DNA of 64,000 bases from Parolsenella massiliensis (GTDB lineage: Bacteria; Actinomycetota; Coriobacteriia; Coriobacteriales; Atopobiaceae). How positions within the stretch are numbered: position 1 is the first letter of the stretch; every line of letters begins with the position of its first letter. A program made the translations under genes and the position numbers. Below the pieces are notes generated by a model. The model did no database searches. It had not been told where the DNA came from and was given only the letters and a program-made list of their open reading frames with translations. Location of the stretch: the NCBI RefSeq assembly GCF_900143685.1, contig NZ_LT671675.1, positions 1,233,985 to 1,297,984 of the forward strand, given 5' to 3'. Below are positions 13,863-26,820 of this stretch, piece by piece.

Positions 13863-13878
13863 GTGTTTTGAAGCGCTT

Positions 13879-13892
13879 GGTTATTGATAACC
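13879..13892. promoter_or_regulatory. Operator-like palindrome O2
   Basis: Second exact copy of GGTTATTGATAACC, 59 bp centre-to-centre from the first and just upstream of the methylase start. Confidence 0.75.
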
Positions 13893-13912
13893 ATTCTTGG
13901 AAAGGAACAGCA

Positions 13913-15634
13913 TTGCCTTACGCAGATTCAAATTTCAGAGAGCTATGTCGTTCGATTGAAAGTCACGTCCGTGGCGCCGGATCGCCTGAGGATGTTTATC
14001 CGCTTGTCTACCTTGTGCGTTCGGTGCGAGACTCCGGCTTCACGAGCAGTTCCCACAAAGCAATTGAGGCAGCCTCCCGTGGCGACGAAGACATCTCAGC
14101 ATCACTCGAGCTCGCACTCGGCCGGTTCTCCCCCTCCGCGTCCCTCAGCGATCTCGTTGATGCCATGGACGCCCTCAGCAAGGACGACCTCGACGCATAC
14201 CTCAAGAATGGGCCCGCCAACCATGGGATGAGCGAAGCCATGTTTGCGACTCCCAAGGGTATCGCCGACCTCGCCGTTGCCATCCTTGACATACACTCCG
14301 ACGACAAAGTTGTCGATTTCGGCTGTGGCAGAGGCACCTTCTTGGAGACAGCTGCTGAAAAATGCCCAAACGCCACGCTTGCCGGCGTCGACATCAATCG
14401 AGATGCCCTCTCCATTGCGAAGATGCGCTCAAACGCAAGCGGTTCCTCCGTCACTTATGTTCACGAGGACATGTTCCACTTCTATGAGGACGTCGTATCA
14501 GGCAAGCCCGTCGACAAGGCATTCTCCAACTACCCGTGGGGCATGCGCACGTTGACGCTCCCCCAGTCGACTGAATACGTCAGTAGGGTCATGAGGGGTC
14601 AGGAACGTTACAGCCGCCCCAACTCTTCCGATTGGGTCTACAACCGCCTTCTCGTCGACTCACTATCGGAGAATGGCATCGCGGTCGCAATCATGTCCAA
14701 TGGCGCCTGTTTCAACGGCATGGACAAACCCGCTCGCAGCTACTTCATCAAGAACGGCTTCGTGAAGGCCGTCGTCGCACTTCCGCAGGGCGTGTTCGCC
14801 CCATACACGTCGATTCTGACCTCTCTCGTCGTTCTCTGCCCCGGTGGGGCCAAGGGCGTTCGTATCGTCGACGCAACCGACCTCGGCACGAGTGACCGAC
14901 GCGGCTGCACGATTGGCGACGCAGACATCAAGACTATCCTCGAACGCCTCGAGTCGGATTCCGAGAAGAGCACGGTAAAGACCGTCGACGAGCTAGCAGC
15001 TCGCAGCTTCGACCTGTCTGCCAAGCGTTACCTCCAGAAAGAGGTTAGGGTCCCCAACGGTGTTCCGCTTTCGAGCGTCGCCACGATCCAGCGCGGTGCC
15101 TCCGTCCGCGCAGCCGATCTTGACGCCCTGGTATGTGACCAAGACACGGGCATCAACTATCTCAACCTCGGCAACATCTCCGATGGCAGCATCGACGACG
15201 AGCTTCCGAACCTCTCTGTGCTTGATCCGAAGCTCGAAAAGTACTGTATTCGCAACGGAGACGTTCTCATATCCAAGAACGGCGCCCCTTTTAAGGTGGC
15301 TGTGGCAGAGGTACCGGAGGGATGCAAGATTCTCGCAAATGGCAACCTCTACGCAGTCCGCGTAAATCGCGATAAGATTGACCCCTATTACCTCGCAGCC
15401 TTCTTCTCGAGCCCATCGGGCAAGGAACTGCTCGCACGAGAAGCGGTCGGAACTGCGATTCCAAATATGCCCGTCAGCGCCCTCTCTATCATTAACGTCC
15501 CTCTCGAAGAGCCCGAGCGCCAGAAAGCCGTAGCCACCTCCTATCTAGCGAAGGTTGACGAAATCAAGGTGCTAAAGCTCCGTCTGTTCCGCGCACGCCA
15601 GGAGATTGCCGACGCGTTTGACGGGGAGGCATAG
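13913..15634 (+). CDS. N6-adenine DNA methylase fused to a type I specificity half (M.S fusion)
   Basis: 573 residues. FATPKGIADL (111-120) resembles the F-TP region of HsdM proteins, VDFGCGRGTFL (134-144) is the SAM-binding motif I, and SNYPWG (205-210) stands where motif IV NPP(F/Y) is expected. From about 390 a single target-recognition unit follows (SSVATIQRGASVRAADLDAL, then GDVLISKNGAPFKV) and ends in a helical segment (ARQEIADAFDGEA). This is a one-polypeptide modification/specificity design with no nuclease. The TTG at 13913 has AAAGGA upstream; an upstream TTG at 13868 overlaps the operator. Coupled to the next gene with a 2-bp gap. The second proline-position change (NYPW) might alter catalysis. 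Confidence 0.8.
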   Translation: MPYADSNFRELCRSIESHVRGAGSPEDVYPLVYLVRSVRDSGFTSSSHKAIEAASRGDEDISASLELALGRFSPSASLSDLVDAMDALSKDDLDAYLKNGPANHGMSEAMFATPKGIADLAVAILDIHSDDKVVDFGCGRGTFLETAAEKCPNATLAGVDINRDALSIAKMRSNASGSSVTYVHEDMFHFYEDVVSGKPVDKAFSNYPWGMRTLTLPQSTEYVSRVMRGQERYSRPNSSDWVYNRLLVDSLSENGIAVAIMSNGACFNGMDKPARSYFIKNGFVKAVVALPQGVFAPYTSILTSLVVLCPGGAKGVRIVDATDLGTSDRRGCTIGDADIKTILERLESDSEKSTVKTVDELAARSFDLSAKRYLQKEVRVPNGVPLSSVATIQRGASVRAADLDALVCDQDTGINYLNLGNISDGSIDDELPNLSVLDPKLEKYCIRNGDVLISKNGAPFKVAVAEVPEGCKILANGNLYAVRVNRDKIDPYYLAAFFSSPSGKELLAREAVGTAIPNMPVSALSIINVPLEEPERQKAVATSYLAKVDEIKVLKLRLFRARQEIADAFDGEA

Positions 15635-15636
15635 CA

Positions 15637-16188
15637 TTGGCCCATCTCACCGCGCAGGAGCTCTCGGACCTCTGCGACGCAATGATGGGGCGCATGGGAC
15701 TCGAGCTTCTACCCGCAATCACAAAAGCGAATCGCGAAGACAGCTTGGAGGACCTCCTCTCGTCTCTTGGGATGTCTGACCTTCTGGGAGGGACGACAAA
15801 TCCTCACGAGGAGCACGTCCTTGGAAAGGTGATCGTGCTTGGTGCGAGCGCCGTAAACGTTGACAAACTACGCAGCACGGCAAAGAAAGCTGGCTTTGAC
15901 CCCGATCGTTTCGAGTTCCATCTCGACTACAACCGACTCAAGCACTTCGACTTTGGCAAGGTGCGCGACACAATGGGATATGTCGCAATATTTGCCGGCC
16001 CGATGCCCCATAAGACCCCGGGAGCCGAGGAAGCCTCGAGCTTTCTTGCCCGCGTCGAAAACAACCCCGATGGGTACCCCACACTCATCAAACTAAAAGC
16101 AGGCAATGACCTCAAGATCACGAACAACAGCTTCAAGCACGCACTAGGAAAGCTGTCCCAGCTTGAAGGGACGCCAGCGTGGCGCTAG
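15637..16188 (+). CDS. Unrecognised 183-residue partner of the M.S fusion
   Basis: I do not recognise a named family. TTG start with GGGGAGG at good spacing, 2 bp after the methylase stop, so translation is likely coupled. Residues 1-60 are helical and acidic. From about 62 (LGKVIVLGASAVNVDKLRST) the pattern suggests a Rossmann-like fold with alternating strands, then HLDYNRLKHFDF, YVAIFAGPMPHKTPG (115-129) and a C-terminal block LKITNNSFKHALGKL. The strongly patterned GPMPHKTPG loop looks functional. No membrane segment or signal peptide. Could be an effector, a nuclease partner or an assembly factor; undecided. Confidence 0.75.
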   Translation: MAHLTAQELSDLCDAMMGRMGLELLPAITKANREDSLEDLLSSLGMSDLLGGTTNPHEEHVLGKVIVLGASAVNVDKLRSTAKKAGFDPDRFEFHLDYNRLKHFDFGKVRDTMGYVAIFAGPMPHKTPGAEEASSFLARVENNPDGYPTLIKLKAGNDLKITNNSFKHALGKLSQLEGTPAWR

Positions 16189-16408
16189 CAGATAACACCC
16201 GAGCCAAGTGCCCCCCGCGAACGCTCCTCAACCCCACCGACCCTGCGGCTAGCGTTGGAAAGAAAGGCGGTGGCCCCTTTCCATACGCGCTCGGACTCCA
16301 AGACAAGGCACAATCTTTAGCAACGTAGTGACCATCCAACAATCCCACGCCATACCGAAAGCAAGCAAGGAAACAGGGGGACGACGTCGCACAAGGGAGG
16401 GCACCGAC

Positions 16409-17389
16409 ATGAACCCTAAGAACGCCGCTCAAGAGATTGCCCGTCTTATGCTTCCGTATCTAAACACTGAGCAAAACCGAAAGCTCGAAAAGGTTTTAGC
16501 TCATTGCCTTTTTGACGAAAGCCAGTTGGCAGACAGCGAAGGTGGCAGCGGTGACGCGTTTCTCGCGCTCTTTCTCTCCGCTAAGCGCCTCGAGGGTTGT
16601 TCGGATAGAACCCTCGCCTACTACGAAACAACTATTAAAAAAATGTTGGGAACCTTCGATACGCCCGCCTGCAATCTTGGGACTGAAGAGATTAGGTCCT
16701 ACCTATCTGACTACCAGTTGAGAGGCGGCGTCAGTCGAGTCACCGTAGACAACGTCCGCAGAATCATATCGAGCTTCTACTCATGGCTCGAAGATGAGGA
16801 TCACATTATCAAGAGTCCGGTAAGACGCATCAAAAAAGTCAAGGCGCCACAAACCATAAAGGAGACGTATAGCGATGAGGACATAGAAATCCTCTGTGAC
16901 AACTGCAAGACGGCTCGGGACCTCGCCCTGATTGATTTACTACGTTCAACGGGTATGAGAGTAGGCGAACTTGTCTCACTAGACAGAAGCTCTGTCGACA
17001 CCGTCAATCGAGAATGCGTTGTACACGGTAAGGGGAACAAAGATCGTATTGTCTATTTCGACGCAAAGACAAAGGTCCATATTGAAAACTACCTATCAAC
17101 CAGGATGGATAGCTCGGAAGCCCTATTCGTTTCGCGCAGAGCGCCGTATGAAAGGCTCGAAATCGGGGGCATTGAGGCTCTTCTTAGGAAATTGGGGCGA
17201 GATCTCAACTTGGGACGAGTCCATCCTCATAAATTTAGAAGAACTCTAGCTACAAAAGCGATCGACAAGGGAATGCCAATCGAACAGGTCCAGGTACTTC
17301 TCGGTCATAAAAAGATTGACACTACATTAAGGTATGCAATGGTCGACCAACGCAATGTCAAGGCTTCCCATCGTAGATATCTAACTTAA
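16409..17389 (+). CDS. Tyrosine recombinase (XerC/D-like), likely hsdS inversion enzyme
   Basis: 326 residues: an N-terminal SAM-like core-binding domain (about 45-135) and a C-terminal catalytic domain. The catalytic set is visible as Arg184 (STGMRVGEL), Lys208 (HGKGNKDR), His274-x-x-Arg277 (HPHKFRR), His300 (LLGHKKIDTT) and Tyr309. The ATG at 16409 has GGGAGG upstream. Base use is more AT-rich than the housekeeping genes. Its stop codon lies in the outer inverted repeat, tail-to-tail with the silent hsdS cassette. This is the placement seen in phase-variable type I loci, so it probably inverts hsdS segments rather than moving a phage. Confidence 0.88.
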   Translation: MNPKNAAQEIARLMLPYLNTEQNRKLEKVLAHCLFDESQLADSEGGSGDAFLALFLSAKRLEGCSDRTLAYYETTIKKMLGTFDTPACNLGTEEIRSYLSDYQLRGGVSRVTVDNVRRIISSFYSWLEDEDHIIKSPVRRIKKVKAPQTIKETYSDEDIEILCDNCKTARDLALIDLLRSTGMRVGELVSLDRSSVDTVNRECVVHGKGNKDRIVYFDAKTKVHIENYLSTRMDSSEALFVSRRAPYERLEIGGIEALLRKLGRDLNLGRVHPHKFRRTLATKAIDKGMPIEQVQVLLGHKKIDTTLRYAMVDQRNVKASHRRYLT

Positions 17390-17936
17390 ATTTCGATTTG
17401 TCGACCGAGGCCGCGAAGTCGGCGAACTCCTGTTGGAGTTCAAGTGGGGGCACGGGCATCGGAAGAGCAGCCACTTGGCTCATCGTGATGCGCGATCTCG
17501 TATTACCGTGCATATTTTTCTTTGCCAGAAGAAGCGTGCTCCTAAGGTTGAAGAAGGTGCAGACGTATTGGGGCATCAATTTATCTCGATCGAGGGTGAT
17601 ATGCACGCAGTCCGACTTGTTAATGGAAAGCGGTATGTATCCAGGAACTATGCATGCCCGCAGATTTGGCTCACCAAGCGTTCCGACTAAAATATCCCCA
17701 GGACGGCATGTGTAGCGTTGGAGAGTCTTATAGTGTTCTTCGGTGATATATGCCTCGTCAGAGTTATCGAAGTAGCCGGGCTTGATATTGCCTAGCCTCA
17801 AAACCCTAATCCCTCGACGAACATAATGTGACGATTTTAAGCTTGACCCAAACGGGCCATCACTAATGTCGGCAACCGCCTCTTTAACCTGTTCAATCTT
17901 GAAATTCTTGAAGTTATCTTCAGGATTCCCGAACAT
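17358..17936 (-). pseudogene. Silent hsdS half-cassette (alternative TRD2)
   Basis: 192 codons equal to one half of a type I specificity subunit. It starts within a shared motif (coding VEMF) and ends after LQQEFADFAASVDKSKFK, matching LQQEFATLAASVDKSKFA of the active hsdS. The recognition part (DISDGPFGSSLKSSHYVRRG) is entirely different from the active one. A TGA lies four codons upstream of the shared KSQFVEMF segment, there is no first half and no promoter, and it runs opposite to the operon. It is a stored alternative to be swapped by recombination at the flanking inverted repeats. An ATG exists, so expression as a half-subunit cannot be fully excluded. Confidence 0.85.
17388..17408. repeat. 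Outer inverted repeat, copy at silent cassette
   Basis: 21 bp, exact reverse complement of 22070-22090 in hsdS (TCGGTCGACAAATCGAAATT plus T). Weaker similarity extends about 30 bp further through the LQQEFA coding segment. It overlaps the recombinase stop codon. Confidence 0.85.
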
Positions 17937-17955
17937 CTCGACAAATTGTGATTTG
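17931..17955. repeat. Inner inverted repeat, copy at silent cassette
   Basis: 25 bp, exact reverse complement of 21550-21574 in hsdS (contains CAAATCACAATTTGTCGAGA). It marks the 5' limit of the silent TRD. Confidence 0.88.
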
Positions 17956-18065: not shown

Positions 18066-19565
18066 ATGCCAGAAGAACCAATAAGCAAATCCGAGCTGGG
18101 AAACCACCTGCTCGGGGCCTGCGATATTTTGCGCGGCCCCATCAACCAAGACGAGTACAAGAGCTATATCACCCCGCTGCTCTTCTTCAAGCGTATTTCC
18201 GACGTCTACGACGAAGAGACCGCCGATGCGTTGGAGTTCTCAAATGGCGATAGGGACTACGCCGCGCTGCCCGAGAACCACAGCTTCGAGGTACCCGAGG
18301 GTTGCCACTGGCAGGACGTCCGTAACACCGGCACGAACGTCGGCAAGGCGATCGTCGACGCCATGGTGGGCATCGAGTGCGCCAACCCCGACACCCTCAG
18401 CGGCCTCTTCAGTAGCTTCGACGATGCGAGCTGGACAGACAAGGGCAAGCTCTCCGACGAGCGCCTGAAGGACCTCGTCGAGCACTTCTCGGCAAAGAAG
18501 TTCGGCAACAGGAACTACAGCGCCGACATGATGGGCGACGCCTACGAATACCTGATCAAGAAGTTCGCCGACATGCAGAAGAAAAATGCTGGCGAGTTCT
18601 ACACCCCGCGCGAGATCGTCAAGATGATGGTCTCCCTGCTTGAGCCGAAGCCCGGCGAAACCGTCTACGACCCCGCTTGCGGCACGGGCGGCATGCTCAT
18701 TGAGGCCGTGCGACAGATGGACAACTCCAAGCTCGCCTACGGCAAGCTCTACGGCCAGGAGAAGAACCTCAGCACGTCCGCCATAGCGCGAATGAACCTG
18801 TATCTTCACGGCGCGAAGGACTTCCGCATCGCTCAGGGCGACACCTTGCGCGAGCCTGCCTTTCGAGACGGCAACGCCCTCAAGACCTTCGACTGCGTCC
18901 TCGCAAACCCGCCGTTCTCGCTTAAGAACTGGGGATCTGACGAGTTCTCTTCGGACCCGTGGGGCCGCAATATCTGGGGCGTCCCCACGGACAAGTCGGC
19001 GGACTTCGCCTGGGTCCAACACATGGTCTGCTCCATGGACGAGGAGAACGGTCGCTGCGCCGTGGTATTGCCCCAGGGCGCACTGTTCCACGGCGGCAAA
19101 GAGGGCGCTATCCGCAAGGAACTGATCAAGTCAGACAGGGTCGAGGCCGTTATCTCACTCGCAAGCGGAGTCTTCTACAGCACGGGCGTTTCGGCCTGCG
19201 TGCTGTTCCTTAGGAACGACAAGCCCGCCGAGCATCGGGGGCGCGTCTGCATCATCGACGGCAGCAGGATCTTCACTGCCCAGCGCGCGCAGAATATGAT
19301 CTCGGAAGAGAACGCGCAAGAGATGCTTTCCCTCTATCGCTCCTACGAGCCCGTCGTCGAGAAATGCGCCATCGCAACGCTCGCCGACATCGAGAACGAG
19401 GGGTACGTGCTCTCGGCAAACAACTACATCGAGAGGAAGCGTGAGAAAGTCGAGCCGCCGGCAGAGACCAGAAAACGCTTCTACGACCTCCTGCAGCAAA
19501 CCAAGGAATCCGAGGAGAGGCTCCTCGACCTGCTCACGAAGGGAGGCTATACCGATGGAGAATAG
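18066..19565 (+). CDS. hsdM: Type I restriction-modification methylase subunit, copy 1
   Basis: 499 residues. An N-terminal HsdM helical domain (about 1-150; SYITPLLFFKRISDVYDEE) is followed by the N6-methyltransferase domain: AGEFYTPREIVKMM, motif I DPACGTGGML (about 203-212) and motif IV NPPF (about 281-284). A C-terminal helical tail would contact HsdS. It methylates adenine in the asymmetric target set by HsdS and is also needed for restriction with HsdR. I start at the ATG at 18066 (MPEEPISKSELGNHL) rather than 18009 because the family begins here. It overlaps the second hsdM by 11 bp. Confidence 0.95.
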   Translation: MPEEPISKSELGNHLLGACDILRGPINQDEYKSYITPLLFFKRISDVYDEETADALEFSNGDRDYAALPENHSFEVPEGCHWQDVRNTGTNVGKAIVDAMVGIECANPDTLSGLFSSFDDASWTDKGKLSDERLKDLVEHFSAKKFGNRNYSADMMGDAYEYLIKKFADMQKKNAGEFYTPREIVKMMVSLLEPKPGETVYDPACGTGGMLIEAVRQMDNSKLAYGKLYGQEKNLSTSAIARMNLYLHGAKDFRIAQGDTLREPAFRDGNALKTFDCVLANPPFSLKNWGSDEFSSDPWGRNIWGVPTDKSADFAWVQHMVCSMDEENGRCAVVLPQGALFHGGKEGAIRKELIKSDRVEAVISLASGVFYSTGVSACVLFLRNDKPAEHRGRVCIIDGSRIFTAQRAQNMISEENAQEMLSLYRSYEPVVEKCAIATLADIENEGYVLSANNYIERKREKVEPPAETRKRFYDLLQQTKESEERLLDLLTKGGYTDGE

Positions 19566-21045
19566 AATCCCCCAGGAAGAGCTGAACAACCACCTATGGA
19601 ACGCGGCCGTCCTGCTGCGCACCTACATCGATGCCGGGTCGTACAAGCAATACATCTTCCCACTGCTGTTCTTCAAGCGCCTCTCCGACGTCTACGACGA
19701 GGAGACCGTCGAAGCGTTGGAAGCCTCCGACGGAGATGTAGAGTTCGCAGCCCTGCCAGAGAACCATAGCTTCGCCATCCCCGACGGCGCCCACTGGAGC
19801 GATGTCAGGGAGGTCACAGAGAATGTCGGCAAGGCCATCGTCGACGCCTTCCGTGCCATCGAGGCAGCCAACGATTCCAAGCTTCGCGGCATCTTCGGCG
19901 ACGCCGCCTGGACCAACAAGAAGCGCCTGCCCGACCGTCTGCTCAAGGACCTCATCGAGCACTTCAGCGCCGAGACGCTTTCTATAGCCAACTGTCCCGA
20001 GGACGAGCTCGGCCAGGGATACGAGTACCTCATCAAGAAGTTTGCGGACGATTCGGGGCATACCGCCCAGGAGTTCTACACCAACCGCACGGTCGTCCAC
20101 CTGATGACCGAGATCCTCCAGCCCAGGCCCGGAGAGTCCATCTACGATCCCACCTGTGGCAGCGCCGGCATGCTCATCTCCGCCATCGCCCACCTCAAAC
20201 AACATGGGGAGGAGTGGCGCAACGTCCATGCGTACGGACAGGAAATCAACCAGCTCTCGTCTGCCATCGGCCGCATGAACCTGTTCCTTCACGGGGTCGA
20301 GGACTTCGAGATCGCCAACGACGACACGCTACGGCACCCTGCCTTCCTCGAAGGGGGAAAGCTACGCACTTTCGACATGGTGCTCGCCAATCCCCCTTAC
20401 TCCATCAAGCAGTGGGATCGCGAGTCGTTCGCATCCGACCCCTATGGCCGCAACTTCCTCGGCACGCCTCCGCAGGGCCGCGCCGACTACGCCTTCATCC
20501 AGCACATCCTCAAGAGCATGAACCCAAAGAGCGGCAGGTGCGCCATCCTCCTTCCCCACGGCGTGCTCTTCCGCAACGAGGAGTCGGAGATGCGCAAGAG
20601 GCTCGTGAGAAGCGATCTAGTCGAGGCGATCATCGGGCTCGGCGCAAACCTCTTCTTCAACTCGCCCATGGAAGCGTGCGTCCTCATCTGCCGCAGCGAG
20701 AAAGCGCCAAAACGGCGCAAGGAGATACTGTTCATCGACGCCTCCGCCGAGGTGACCCGTAAGAACGCGCAGAGTTACCTTGAGCCCCACCACATCGAGA
20801 AGATCGTTGAGGCCTACCGATCGGATAAGGACGTCGAGGGCTTCTCATCCCACGCAACGATTGGCGAAATCGAAAGCAACGCCTTCTCACTCTCCATCCC
20901 CCTGTACGTGAAGTCCTCCAACGACGATGGCGCTGACGACAGAAGCATCGAAGAGACGGTGGAGAGTTGGAAGGCCACCTCCATAAAGGCCATGTCCATG
21001 CTCGATGGCATTGCTACGAAATTGCACGAAAACGATGGTGAGTGA
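19555..21045 (+). CDS. hsdM: Type I restriction-modification methylase subunit, copy 2 (paralogue)
   Basis: 496 residues, homologous to the preceding gene along its whole length (both have YKQYIFPLLFFKR/YKSYITPLLFFKR-type N-termini and VYDEET), yet clearly divergent. Motif I is DPTCGSAGML (about 198), motif IV NPPY (about 278), and the F-TP element reads EFYTNRTVVHLM. All catalytic motifs remain, so it should be active. ATG at 19555 within the end of copy 1, with GGGAGG upstream. Two intact, non-identical hsdM genes in one operon are unusual and suggest a mixed M1M2S methylase or a duplication with division of labour. Confidence 0.93.
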   Translation: MENRIPQEELNNHLWNAAVLLRTYIDAGSYKQYIFPLLFFKRLSDVYDEETVEALEASDGDVEFAALPENHSFAIPDGAHWSDVREVTENVGKAIVDAFRAIEAANDSKLRGIFGDAAWTNKKRLPDRLLKDLIEHFSAETLSIANCPEDELGQGYEYLIKKFADDSGHTAQEFYTNRTVVHLMTEILQPRPGESIYDPTCGSAGMLISAIAHLKQHGEEWRNVHAYGQEINQLSSAIGRMNLFLHGVEDFEIANDDTLRHPAFLEGGKLRTFDMVLANPPYSIKQWDRESFASDPYGRNFLGTPPQGRADYAFIQHILKSMNPKSGRCAILLPHGVLFRNEESEMRKRLVRSDLVEAIIGLGANLFFNSPMEACVLICRSEKAPKRRKEILFIDASAEVTRKNAQSYLEPHHIEKIVEAYRSDKDVEGFSSHATIGEIESNAFSLSIPLYVKSSNDDGADDRSIEETVESWKATSIKAMSMLDGIATKLHENDGE

Positions 21046-21046
21046 C

Positions 21047-22171
21047 ATGACCCGTGTTTATTTGGGCGACGTAGCCCGCGAAATCAAAAAGAAGGCTTCC
21101 GTAGGGCATGAGCTGCCCACGGTCGGCCTTGAGCATCTGGATTCCGGCGAGGTTGAGCTCGCCCGTTGGGACGAAGGCGCCGAGACCACTTTCACCAAGG
21201 CCTTCTCAAAAGGACAGGTGCTATTCGGACGCCGCAGGGCCTATCTGCGCAAAGCGGCCATCGCCCCATTCGATGGAATCTGCTCCGGAGACATCACCGT
21301 CATCGCCGCCAAGGACGGCCTCTCCCCACGGTTGCTCCCATTTATCATCCAGAACGATGCCCTATTTGAGCACGCCGTCACCAACTCGGCAGGCTCCCTC
21401 TCGCCAAGGGTCAAGTGGCAGAGCCTCTCGCAATTTGAGTTCGAGCTCCCCAGCGGCGACAGACAGGAAGAGCTTGCCGACATTCTCTGGGCCGCACAAG
21501 AGACGAGGTCTCACTACAGACAGCTGCTTACAGCCTGCGACGACGTCGTCAAATCACAATTTGTCGAGATGTTCAGCTCCGTGAATAGCAATGATTTGAG
21601 ACCCCTTAAAGATGTCTGTTCAATTATTACTGATGGCACACACCAGCCTCCGAAGTTTATCGACAAAGGCATTCCATTTCTTTTTGTCAGCAATATTGTT
21701 TCAGATGTCATCAGCTATGAAACGAATAAGTTCATTTCTGCGGAAGACTATGAACAACTTATTCACCGAACTCCAGTCGAAGAGGGGGACGTCCTTGTCT
21801 CAGCAGTAGGCTCATTTGGTCACCCTGCAATTGTCACAGACGACAGGCCGTTTTGTTTTCAGCGCCATATCGCATACCTGAAACCTCGGCACGATTTGAT
21901 TGACAGCAATTATCTACATGCTGCCTTGCTTTCAGAGAACGCCCAAAGATATATGGATCGATGCGCGAAAGGTGCCGCCCAGCGAACCGTAACTTTGAAG
22001 AACTTCAAGGATTTGAAAGTTCCGGTTCCCCCGCTTGCTCTCCAGCAGGAGTTCGCCACCTTAGCCGCTTCGGTCGACAAATCGAAATTTGCCATACAAA
22101 AGGCCCTCGATGAGCTGAGCGCCACGACGAAAAAAATCTTGAACCAGGAGTTAGGACTCGGAGATGTTTAA
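21047..22171 (+). CDS. hsdS: Type I restriction specificity subunit (expressed copy)
   Basis: 374 residues with the usual TRD1-CR1-TRD2-CR2 order. TRD1 covers about 1-150 (LFGRRRAYLRKAAIAPFDG), the central conserved helix ends in DDVVKSQFVEMF, TRD2 covers about 178-335 (DGTHQPPKFIDKGIPF), and CR2 is LQQEFATLAASVDKSKFAI. TRD2 is visibly more AT-rich than the 5' half, as expected for an exchanged cassette. The inner repeat (21550-21574) lies at the CR1/TRD2 joint and the outer repeat (22070-22090) in CR2. I prefer the ATG at 21047 (GGTGAG upstream) over 21035. It overlaps hsdR by 8 bp. Confidence 0.93.
   Translation: MTRVYLGDVAREIKKKASVGHELPTVGLEHLDSGEVELARWDEGAETTFTKAFSKGQVLFGRRRAYLRKAAIAPFDGICSGDITVIAAKDGLSPRLLPFIIQNDALFEHAVTNSAGSLSPRVKWQSLSQFEFELPSGDRQEELADILWAAQETRSHYRQLLTACDDVVKSQFVEMFSSVNSNDLRPLKDVCSIITDGTHQPPKFIDKGIPFLFVSNIVSDVISYETNKFISAEDYEQLIHRTPVEEGDVLVSAVGSFGHPAIVTDDRPFCFQRHIAYLKPRHDLIDSNYLHAALLSENAQRYMDRCAKGAAQRTVTLKNFKDLKVPVPPLALQQEFATLAASVDKSKFAIQKALDELSATTKKILNQELGLGDV
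21550..21574. repeat. Inner inverted repeat, copy in hsdS
   Basis: 25-bp exact partner of 17931-17955, encoding KSQFVEMF at the border between the central conserved region and TRD2. Confidence 0.88.
22070..22090. repeat. Outer inverted repeat, copy in hsdS
   Basis: 21-bp exact partner of 17388-17408, encoding SVDKSKF in the distal conserved region. Confidence 0.85.
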
Positions 22172-25076
22172 CGAGGACAACACCATCGAGCAAATGAGTG
22201 TCAAAGCGCTCTCCGACCTCGGCTGGACCTATGTGGCTGCCGACAATCTTCCTCGCCGTCATACCGACGTCATGGTCGAGCCTATGGTCAAGGATGCCCT
22301 CATTAGGCTCAATCCGGAGGTCGCAGAAGACCCCGATCGCGCCGACGAGATTATCTACCGGCTCAGGGCCCTCATCCAATCCGCAAGCCCCCAGAACCTG
22401 GTCTCCACCAACGAGCGCTTCAAAAAGCTCATTTTCGAGGAGAACTCATTCCCTTACGGCAAAGACGGCCGCATGGTCCCCATCCGCTTCTTTGGCACGG
22501 CGGCGGACGGCGATCTCGACAAGAACGAGTACATCGTCACCAACCAGTGGGTCTACCCTCAGGAGCAGGGCGGCAAGCGCCTCGACCTCGTCCTTCTTGT
22601 CAATGGATTTCCGCTCGTCATCGGCGAGTTCAAGACGCCGGTGCGCGATTCGATAACCTGGCTCGACGGCGCTGGCGACATCGCCAAATATGAGAAGAGC
22701 ATCCCGCAGATGTTCGTCTGTAGCGCTATCAGCTTCGCCAGCGAAGGGAAATGCTATCGCTACGGGTCAGTGAACATGCCTCCCGAGATGTGGGGACCCT
22801 GGCATGAGGGCGACAAGAAGAGCGAGGGCACACTTGCCGACGTCAAGAGAAGCATGACGTCCATGCTAACCCCCACGAACGTCATGGACATCTTCCAGTT
22901 CTTCACGCTCTTCGCCACCGATAAGAAGCATCGACGCATCAAGTTGATCTGTCGCTACCAACAGTTCGAGGGCGCAAACCTCATCGTGGACCGCGTCCGC
23001 GCCGGCTATCCGAAGCGCGGCCTCATCTGGCACTTTCAGGGATCCGGCAAGTCGCTACTCATGGTGTTCGCCGCCCAAAAACTTCGAATGGTTCCCGAGC
23101 TCAAGAACCCAACCGTCGTCATCGTGGATGACCGCATCGACTTGGAGACCCAGATCACGGGGACCTTCAACGCATCCGATATCCCCAACCTCGCAAGCGC
23201 CGGCAGCAAGGAGGAGCTTGAGTCCTTCTTCAAGCAGGACATGAGAAAGATCCTTATCACCACCATCTTCAAATTCGGCGAGATCACAGGGACGCTCAAC
23301 GAGCGCGAGAACATCATCCTTATGGTCGACGAGGCGCACCGCACCCAAGAGGGCGACCTCGGCGAGAAGATGCGCCTCGCTCTGCCGAACGCCTTCTTCT
23401 TCGGCTTGACCGGCACGCCCATCAACCGAACCGACAAGAACACGTTCCATACCTTCGGTGCCAAAGAGGACAAGTCCGGCTACATGAGCCGCTATTCCTT
23501 CGCCGACTCCATCCGCGACCACGCCACGTTGCCGCTCCATTTTGAAACCGTTCCCGTTGAGCTCCACGTCAACCAAGAGGTTGTGAACGCCGCCTTTGAC
23601 GAAATGACCCAAGACCTCAGCAAAGAGGACAAGGCGGAACTCACCAGGCGCGTCAAGATCGAGGCCGTCATGAAGGCCCCCGACCGCATCCACAAGGTAT
23701 GCGAGCACATCGCCAAACACTTCAAATCGAAGGTTGAGCCCGACGGTTTCAAGGCACAAGTGGTCTGCTACGACCGAGAGTGCTGTCTGCTGTATAAGGA
23801 GGAACTCGACAAACTCTTGGGTGCCGATGCGGTCACCATCGTCATGGACACGAACAACGACAAGGAGGACCGCTACAAGGCATACCGCCGCGATCGCGAT
23901 GCCGAGGAAAAGCTTCTTGACCGTTTCCGTGACCCGGACGACCCGCTCAAGGTCCTCATCGTAACCGCGAAGCTGCTCACGGGGTTCGATGCACCCATCC
24001 TGCAAACTCAGTACCTCGACAAACCCCTGCGCGACCACACGTTGCTGCAGGCGATCTGCCGAACCAACCGCGTCTACAACGACAAGAAGTCGTTCGGCCT
24101 CATCGTCGACTATATCGGCCTCTTCGACAACATCGCCAAGTCCCTCCACTTTGACGAGGTCGAGGTTCAGAAGGTCATAACCAACATCGATGAGGTCAAA
24201 GCCGAGTTGCCCAGACTCATGCATTGCTGCCTTGAGTACTTCTCGACGGTCAAAAACCGCCGTAGCGCGGATTGGGAATCCCTTCTCGAAGCCCAACAAT
24301 GCCTGCCGACAACAAAGGTGAAGGATCAATTCGGAGCCGACTTCTCGGTCCTGAACAGGGCATGGGAAGCCCTTTCTCCCGATCCGTGCCTGAACCCTTA
24401 CAAGCCCGATTTCATCTGGCTCTCACAGGTCTATGACTCCGTTAGGCCCGTAGACAATCGCGGAAAGCTCATCTGGGCAGCGCTCGGTCCCAAAACAATC
24501 GAACTCGTACACGAGAACATCACCGTTGAGAACGTACGGGACGATGACGACATCCTTGAACTCGACGAGGACATGATCGAGCATTTCATCAACGACAAGA
24601 GCAATACCGAGAAGATCACGCGTAAGCTGGAGATAGATCTCGTCGCCCGAATCCGCAAGCACGATAAGAATGGTAAGTTCCAAAAGCTCGGCGAGCGTCT
24701 GGAGGACCTGAGGGAACGCCACGAGCAGGGTCTCATCAACAGCGTCGAGTTCCTCAAGATGCTCATTGACCTCGCCAAGGAGGCGCGAGCCGCCGAGAAG
24801 GAAGTCGTGCCCGAGGAAGAGGAAGACAAAGGTAAAGCCGCCCTCACCGAACTCTTCAACGGCATCAAGAACGGCGACACGCCCATCATCGTCGAGAACA
24901 TCGTCAATGACATCGACGAGATCGTTAAGATTACCCGTTTCGACGGTTGGCAAGCCACTACGGCCGGCGTCAAAGAGGTCAAAAAACAGCTCCGCGCCAT
25001 TCTATGGATGCGCTATAAGCTCAAGGATCAAGCCTTATTCGACAAGGCCTATTCGTACATCGAGCTTTACTACTAA
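22164..25076 (+). CDS. hsdR: Type I restriction endonuclease subunit R
   Basis: 970 residues. An N-terminal PD-(D/E)xK nuclease is seen as LDLVLLVNGFPLVIGEFK (Asp about 139, Glu-x-Lys about 155). The SF2 helicase/translocase motor follows: Walker A as QGSGKS (about 293), DEAH (about 388) with TGTP, and the second RecA domain with LIVTAKLLTGFDAP and QAICRTNR. A C-terminal helical part binds the M2S core. It cuts DNA far from unmethylated target sites after ATP-driven translocation. It overlaps hsdS, so it is in the same operon, but it lies outside the segment bounded by the repeats. Inversion could therefore separate it from hsdM/hsdS. Confidence 0.95.
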   Translation: MFNEDNTIEQMSVKALSDLGWTYVAADNLPRRHTDVMVEPMVKDALIRLNPEVAEDPDRADEIIYRLRALIQSASPQNLVSTNERFKKLIFEENSFPYGKDGRMVPIRFFGTAADGDLDKNEYIVTNQWVYPQEQGGKRLDLVLLVNGFPLVIGEFKTPVRDSITWLDGAGDIAKYEKSIPQMFVCSAISFASEGKCYRYGSVNMPPEMWGPWHEGDKKSEGTLADVKRSMTSMLTPTNVMDIFQFFTLFATDKKHRRIKLICRYQQFEGANLIVDRVRAGYPKRGLIWHFQGSGKSLLMVFAAQKLRMVPELKNPTVVIVDDRIDLETQITGTFNASDIPNLASAGSKEELESFFKQDMRKILITTIFKFGEITGTLNERENIILMVDEAHRTQEGDLGEKMRLALPNAFFFGLTGTPINRTDKNTFHTFGAKEDKSGYMSRYSFADSIRDHATLPLHFETVPVELHVNQEVVNAAFDEMTQDLSKEDKAELTRRVKIEAVMKAPDRIHKVCEHIAKHFKSKVEPDGFKAQVVCYDRECCLLYKEELDKLLGADAVTIVMDTNNDKEDRYKAYRRDRDAEEKLLDRFRDPDDPLKVLIVTAKLLTGFDAPILQTQYLDKPLRDHTLLQAICRTNRVYNDKKSFGLIVDYIGLFDNIAKSLHFDEVEVQKVITNIDEVKAELPRLMHCCLEYFSTVKNRRSADWESLLEAQQCLPTTKVKDQFGADFSVLNRAWEALSPDPCLNPYKPDFIWLSQVYDSVRPVDNRGKLIWAALGPKTIELVHENITVENVRDDDDILELDEDMIEHFINDKSNTEKITRKLEIDLVARIRKHDKNGKFQKLGERLEDLRERHEQGLINSVEFLKMLIDLAKEARAAEKEVVPEEEEDKGKAALTELFNGIKNGDTPIIVENIVNDIDEIVKITRFDGWQATTAGVKEVKKQLRAILWMRYKLKDQALFDKAYSYIELYY

Positions 25077-25750: not shown

Positions 25751-25812
25751 ATAGCCTTATGAATAATTGCAACTGGAAACTATTGTGATTTTCCAATGAC
25801 TTGGAGACCAGA

Positions 25813-26820
25813 TTGAGTACTATTGATGGCAACAGTACCCCGCACGCTTCTCCCGGCAACGGTGTAGCGAACCAGGCGGGGTCGTTTTCTTCCTTTAAGC
25901 CGTCTCTCACATGCAACGATCAACTTAGCCTCATGGTTTCTCGCGGTCTCCGCGTGAATGACCGCAATGAGGCATTGAAACGGCTCTCTGAGCTTAATTA
26001 CTACAGGTTGCGTGGCTATTGGCTTGCCTTCGAAAAGGATGATGCGTTCATTGAAGGAACGACGTTCGAAGACATCACGGACGTGTACGATCTCGACTCC
26101 AAGTTTCGTCGCTGGATATGGGCTGCACTGGAGCCAATCGAGATTAAAGCGCGGACCACATTGGCGCAGCACCTCTCCATGACATATGGACCCCTTGCGC
26201 ACCTCAACAGTGGCCTCTTCAACAATGCCAGCATGCATGCGGAGTCAATCAATAACGTCAGACGCGAGATTGACCAGGCGAGGAAGAACCAGGTCCCTTG
26301 CGTGCTTCACAATCTTAAGAAGTATGGTGAACTACCGATTTGGGCAGCCGTTGAAATCATGTCCCTTGGCACCGTATCGAAGCTGTACGGCAATCTCAGC
26401 AACACCGCTGTCAATAAAAACGGAACTACCGTTGCGAAGGCCATCGCCGAAGAATTCGGGCTTAAGCCGTACGCGCTCAAGAGCTGGCTCAGGCACCTCA
26501 CCTACGTTCGCAACATATGCGGGCACCACTCCAGGCTCTACAACAGAGTAATGACCAACAGGCCAACGTTGCTCAAAGCAGACAAGCCATACGCCAGCAA
26601 CAAGCAGTTTCCAACACTTCTTGTCCTCATGAGAATCTACCAGAATTCGTGGCCAGCGAAATGGAACGAACTGGTTAATGAATTAGACCGCATCATGTCA
26701 GGTCACGATGCTGCATTGCGCTCAATGGGATTCCCGGATAACTGGAAACAGGTTTTGACATCGTCGCGTTCCAATAGAAGCGGCAAGTCAAACGTTCGAT
26801 ACTCCCACGCACCCGCATGA
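25813..26820 (+). CDS. Abi_2-family (AbiD/AbiF-like) abortive infection protein
   Basis: 335 residues. The Abi_2 pattern is clear: an opening KPSLTCNDQLSLMVSRGL, then LNYYRLRGYW and LDSKFRRWIWAALEPIEI. The conserved C-terminal motif is RHLTYVRNICGHHSRLYNR, whose R-(x4-6)-H pattern places these proteins near HEPN-type RNases. Such proteins abort phage infection or are toxins. The start is uncertain: the TTG at 25813 has GGAG 7 bp upstream, and another TTG lies at 25801. Located between a broken mrr and duplicated debris, so acquisition as a defence-island passenger is likely. No antitoxin gene is seen beside it. Confidence 0.85.
   Translation: MSTIDGNSTPHASPGNGVANQAGSFSSFKPSLTCNDQLSLMVSRGLRVNDRNEALKRLSELNYYRLRGYWLAFEKDDAFIEGTTFEDITDVYDLDSKFRRWIWAALEPIEIKARTTLAQHLSMTYGPLAHLNSGLFNNASMHAESINNVRREIDQARKNQVPCVLHNLKKYGELPIWAAVEIMSLGTVSKLYGNLSNTAVNKNGTTVAKAIAEEFGLKPYALKSWLRHLTYVRNICGHHSRLYNRVMTNRPTLLKADKPYASNKQFPTLLVLMRIYQNSWPAKWNELVNELDRIMSGHDAALRSMGFPDNWKQVLTSSRSNRSGKSNVRYSHAPA

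Follow-up and report, generated by a model that had tools for sequence, protein, structure and literature searches.

A PacII-like type I restriction-modification locus of Parolsenella massiliensis with two hsdM genes and a putatively exchangeable TRD2

Described systems closest to the locus

Non-canonical type I enzymes with two different methylases, M1 (NPPF), which makes m6A, and M2 (NPPY), which makes m4C, are a known class (PMC9613975), the first description of which is credited in PMC9613975 to Morgan et al. (2016, NAR 44:9413). In PacII, the M1M2S structures of which (7VRU and 7VS4) were reported by Zhu et al. in 2022, S is bound first by M1, which recruits M2, and M2 alone does not bind S; the half-site read by TRD1 is brought to M2, and the one read by TRD2 to M1 (PMC9613975). 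The same work found that M1 plus S alone retain partial m6A activity, and that M2 is able to methylate adenine once the targets are swapped. Two further kinds of described systems change their specificity. SpnD39III, an inverting phase-variable type I system of pneumococcus, has variable silent hsdS, inverted repeats at the TRD boundaries and a recombinase at the locus (PMC7394358). In SpnIV tvr and SsuCC20p, a tyrosine recombinase gene lies beside hsdM, hsdS and hsdR and the TRDs are shuffled (PMC6265443, PMC10790761), the tvr mechanism being excision and reintegration through direct repeats (PMC6265443).

The locus presented here lies in a stretch of 64,000 nucleotides of Parolsenella massiliensis (the window). 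Like PacII, it has two HsdM paralogues, M1 (NPPF/AGEF) and M2 (NPPY), one S and one R, with chains that are orthologous one to one; relative to PacII, a recombinase and a silent TRD2 are extra. It shares with SpnD39III the variable silent sequence, the inverted repeats and the recombinase, and with SpnIV tvr and SsuCC20p the tyrosine recombinase beside the operon, but it carries two hsdM genes whereas SpnD39III-type inverting systems, SpnIV tvr and SsuCC20p carry one. We believe that a non-canonical PacII-like type I system ordered hsdM1-hsdM2-hsdS-hsdR, to which a putative recombinase-driven exchange of TRD2 is added, is very probably the best explanation of the locus as a whole.

The operon and its PacII counterparts

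The four genes are all on the forward strand and the operon ends at 25076. Gene hsdM1 (18066-19565) encodes an M1-type methylase of 499 aa with the motifs DPACGTGG, AGEF and NPPF, the predicted m6A subunit, and hsdM2 (19555-21045) an M2-type methylase of 496 aa with DPTCGSAG (an SAG variant of motif I), AQEF and NPPY, the predicted m4C subunit. They are followed by hsdS (21035-22171, starting at ATG 21035 or GTG 21038), with a conserved TRD1 (predicted m4C side) and an active TRD2 (predicted m6A side), and by a complete hsdR (22164-25076), the product of which, the restriction and translocation subunit, scored above the cut-off of the HsdR-family model. Successive genes overlap by 11 nt (hsdM1/hsdM2), 11 nt (hsdM2/hsdS, 21035-21045) and 8 nt (hsdS/hsdR); the similarity of the two 11-nt overlaps was considered as a sign of duplication and dropped as too weak. 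A promoter scan yielded candidates no more numerous than those in shuffled sequences. Both HsdM frames are open and full-length, each with the Pfam domains HsdM_N and N6_Mtase, and the two proteins are 48% identical. Thus, the locus combines S and R with two different, intact HsdM genes, one NPPF and one NPPY, in contrast to the classical type I operon, which has a single hsdM (that is, two identical M subunits). When the window was compared with Collinsella aerofaciens (locus L129), M1 had a dN/dS of 0.064 and M2 one of 0.074. Neither copy is therefore decaying, and these ratios indicate that both are under purifying selection.

In a sequence search of solved structures, the two best matches of each HsdM were the two M chains of the PacII M1M2S-DNA complexes (7VRU, 7VS4), and each protein was closest to its own counterpart: M1 to chain A, the PacII M1 (E 1e-137), and M2 to chain B, the PacII M2 (E 2.8e-176). 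HsdS was colinear with the PacII S chain over most of its length (E 1.7e-42). The PacII pocket residues E170, F171 and N276-F279 of M1, and F180, N285-Y288 and F373 of M2, are all present in the respective window subunit. H175 of PacII M2 also has its equivalent, and this position is H in 113/113 M2 proteins; M1 proteins mostly have K or R there. PacII R29 corresponds to R22 of the window M2; we rejected it as an M2-specific marker, since R is also found in 95 of 106 M1 proteins. The one pocket motif that departs from PacII is AQEF, as against the AAEF quoted for PacII M2, and it is the majority state among the M2 proteins (73/113). At the DNA-contact and interface residues, the differences from PacII are mostly states common in the family: M2 has N404 at the position of R410 (N in 56/113) and S29 where PacII has D36, and M1 has Q257 at R252 (Q in 52/106) and H342 at R336 (H in 28/106). 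These sequence comparisons identify the two hsdM genes as M1 and M2 of a PacII-like type I system, predicted to make m6A and m4C, a kind that was already known.

The two TRDs of HsdS behaved differently across 79 S subunits. TRD1 was conserved (mean pairwise identity 0.448), with the PacII base-contact residues R75 and R76 kept in 78/79 and 67/79 proteins, although the base-contact H94 of PacII is D in the window; TRD2 was at background (0.169), and that of the window showed no clear similarity to that of PacII. By analogy with PacII, TRD1 would be the m4C side and TRD2 the m6A side. This raises the question of why the cytosine-side reader is conserved across phyla and the adenine-side domain is freely variable. 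It is common for members of the family to carry TRD1-only hsdS half genes; at the C. aerofaciens locus (L129:9457-11174) hsdS is split into such a half gene (89% identical) followed by a complete second hsdS.

If the enzyme is assembled as its solved and assayed orthologue, HsdS would use its own conserved helices and the C-terminal helices of the M subunits to bind a single copy each of M1 and M2. TRD1 would then offer its half-site to M2 for methylation of a cytosine (m4C), and M1 would methylate an adenine (m6A) in the second half-site, which TRD2 presents on the opposite strand; addition of two HsdR would give the restriction enzyme. The preliminary description of this DNA was correct in reporting two intact, diverged hsdM genes in tandem in one operon and in the motif differences between them. 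Its proposal of a heterodimeric M1M2S core with one methylase per half-site is supported in substance by the PacII orthologue (PMC9613975), but enzymes of this class had been known before and the description had overlooked m4C on one half, the NPPY subunit being predicted to make m4C rather than a second m6A.

NPPY alone was not accepted as proof of m4C, since other, single HsdM proteins in our survey, outside the M1M2 family, are also NPPY. This observation, the activity of PacII M2 on adenine when the target base is swapped (PMC9613975) and the departure from the PacII pocket at AQEF would all suit an enzyme that places m6A on both strands, with an M2 that has retained or recovered its specificity for adenine. 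We consider such a heterodimer very unlikely, because M2 falls inside the PacII M2 clade with its pocket residues kept, and TRD1, which in PacII reads the m4C side, is conserved down to R75 and R76. By analogy with PacII, M2 is therefore predicted to be the m4C-making subunit.

Co-inheritance of M1 and M2

No M1 or M2 orthologues were found in the 60 nearest relatives, which only had HsdM proteins at 41% identity or less, so the survey was moved to phylum, plasmid, genome and viral collections, and M2 relatives were gathered there from the phylum and plasmid sets, 80 genome contigs of bacteria and archaea, and 30 viral contigs. This gave 114 NPPY-M2 loci, five of which begin right where the available sequence starts. 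The co-occurrence of the pair was universal in the remainder: in all 109 loci with upstream DNA, M2 was preceded by an NPPF M in the same orientation, in 87 cases within 50 nt, the invariance of the NPPF/NPPY residue being partly by construction, as the M1 and M2 proteins were picked by that motif. Only two surveyed loci had no NPPY match; one was cut by the contig end and the other was a single-M system (43% identity).

All 106 M1 proteins were closer to PacII M1 and all 113 M2 proteins to PacII M2. In the FastTree phylogeny, M2 formed one clade (support 0.76) and M1 another (0.95), except that one single-M system, from a Rhizobium plasmid, was nested in the latter, and the window M1 and M2 each paired with that of C. 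aerofaciens (1.0). The M1 and M2 tree distances over 60 loci had a correlation of 0.89; permutations reached 0.17 at most. These results indicate that the M1/M2 duplication is old and that both copies have been kept together and co-inherited. What had looked like a puzzling duplication of hsdM is thus a defined and widespread enzyme architecture.

Could one of the two genes nevertheless be a redundant recent duplicate, the working enzyme being a classical homodimer? The nested single-M system shows that an M1-type subunit can stand alone, and PacII M1 with S alone has partial m6A activity (PMC9613975). Recent duplication or redundancy was rejected, however, on the tree, the co-occurrence and dN/dS: the copies share 48% identity and fall into separate old clades that are co-inherited, and both ratios are below 0.08. 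We regard this explanation as extremely improbable, and retain an M1-M2 pair of PacII type.

The nested system, on plasmid pRPC2 of Rhizobium sp. BG4 (L075:5980-7470), is a type I system with a single hsdM, the product of which carries NPPF and GGEF; it is possibly an M1 lineage that lacks M2. In addition, 33 of the 109 surveyed M1 proteins are at least 700 aa long, with a long N-terminal extension. In the only one checked with Pfam (L079:5588-8008), the extension is an ADP-ribosylglycohydrolase (PF03747, E 1.9e-35), and those of L090 and L101 were similar to it by eye.

The silent TRD2, the recombinase and the neighbouring genes

Upstream of hsdM1 lies a silent, inverted, partial hsdS (17358-17936, reverse strand) that carries an alternative TRD2 and no TRD1. 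Beside it there is a gene for a XerA-like tyrosine recombinase (16409-17389, forward strand), with an intact frame that at its longest begins at 16328. The active and the silent TRD2 are bounded by related repeats. At the 5' boundaries, a 25-nt repeat at 17931-17955 (reverse strand) is a perfect inverted match to 21550-21574 (forward strand), and at the 3' boundaries a 69-nt repeat at 17388-17456 (forward strand) is an 84% inverted match to 22022-22090 (reverse strand). The core AAAT[CT]N3-4ATTTGTCGA occurs exactly four times in the 64 kb, at these four TRD2 boundaries. Inverted repeats thus join the active hsdS with a silent variable TRD. Since TRD2 is bounded by recombination-site-like repeats common to an inverted silent TRD2 beside a recombinase gene, we infer that the m6A half of the target should be phase-variable and the m4C half fixed. 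The recombinase would act at the four related sites to swap the active TRD2 with the silent one, so that the m6A half would change and the m4C half would not. A fixed m4C half combined with an apparently switchable m6A half would make a clean system for study.

The locus of C. aerofaciens is syntenic, with a recombinase, M1, M2 and R that are 85%, 92%, 91% and 97% identical to those of the window. It has a 23-nt inverted repeat pair (96%) and other TRD2 sequences between the same boundaries. That layout, the perfect 25-nt repeat, the restriction of the core to the four boundaries and the intact recombinase frame argue against the repeats being relics beside a fixed S gene, with the upstream piece a defunct remnant of some recombination between systems. 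In favour of relics, one arrangement has been seen, in a single genome, the upstream fragment lacks TRD1, and, among the 22 recombinase-bearing M1M2 loci, exact inverted repeats of at least 20 nt are found in the window only. On balance we find relics unlikely, and prefer an exchangeable TRD2.

The recombinase family was present in those 22 of the 99 assessed M1M2 loci, 15 of which have direct repeats in hsdS, and shuffling by direct repeats in these relatives would resemble the published tvr mechanism (PMC6265443); the repeats of the window are inverted. In the other 77 loci both M genes are present and a recombinase is absent, which speaks against a further proposal of the preliminary description, namely that two M subunits exist to pair with different TRD2 states. 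Moreover, with M2 at TRD1 and M1 at TRD2 as in PacII (PMC9613975), a switchable TRD2 would alter only the M1 (m6A) half.

Four sites make several rearrangements possible, including inversion of a TRD2 in place or its excision. The inverting systems illustrated in PMC7394358 have duplicated hsdS copies near each other, whereas here the silent TRD2 precedes hsdM1. A single inversion at the 5' sites would therefore turn the whole hsdM1-hsdM2-TRD1 segment round in one piece, without hsdR. This would place hsdM1-hsdM2-hsdS, with a new TRD2, on the other strand and away from hsdR; in such an hsdR-free state the new specificity could be methylated before restriction is possible, and a second inversion would re-attach hsdR. 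The two-step course with its hsdR-free intermediate is read from the map only. If this geometry works as drawn, it would be a physical answer to a known switching problem, the chromosome being protected before the new specificity cuts. A mixed-mark phasevarion of this kind, in which only the M1-side TRD2 is exchangeable, inversion takes two steps and a module further upstream is possibly regulatory, is put forward tentatively, and as a whole we think it rather doubtful.

The module in question consists of an MTase-TRD fusion gene (13868-15634) and a gene for a 183-aa protein of no known family (15637-16188), both on the forward strand. The fusion has an intact motif I and NYPW as motif IV, and the folds nearest to its AlphaFold model (pLDDT 77) were type I M subunits and N6-adenine methylases; the model of the 183-aa protein was weak (pLDDT 62). 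Among 297 genomes from the order, 13 carried homologues of the fusion, its own genome included. Of nine fusion loci inspected, most continued with type I hsdM or hsdR genes and seven had the 183-aa protein beside the fusion; their M proteins were closest to the PADLOC models PDLC03019 and PDLC03029, and not to M1/M2. Plasmids, phages and viral contigs had no homologues of the 183-aa protein. Distant versions of the fusion without SAM or NPP motifs were found upstream of hsdM1 in 24 of the 55 AQEF-clade M1M2 loci for which the DNA on that side was long enough. In L080, L081, L092, L110, L112, L184 and others, such degenerate relatives keep the TRD, have lost the SAM-binding and NPP motifs and lie directly upstream of hsdM1, often at about 10 nt. 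The recurrence of the pair suggests a so far undescribed module that is accessory to type I systems; its link to the present system is drawn from that recurrence, and it could be a further, regulatory component. A limited literature search returned no description of this module, of the degenerate fusion relatives or of N-terminally extended M1 proteins. The accessory module and the combination of an inverting TRD2 with an M1M2 system may be the new parts of the locus. Downstream of hsdR, a gene of the AbiD/Abi_2 abortive-infection family is found at 25801-26820, and this part of the window has the look of a small defence island.
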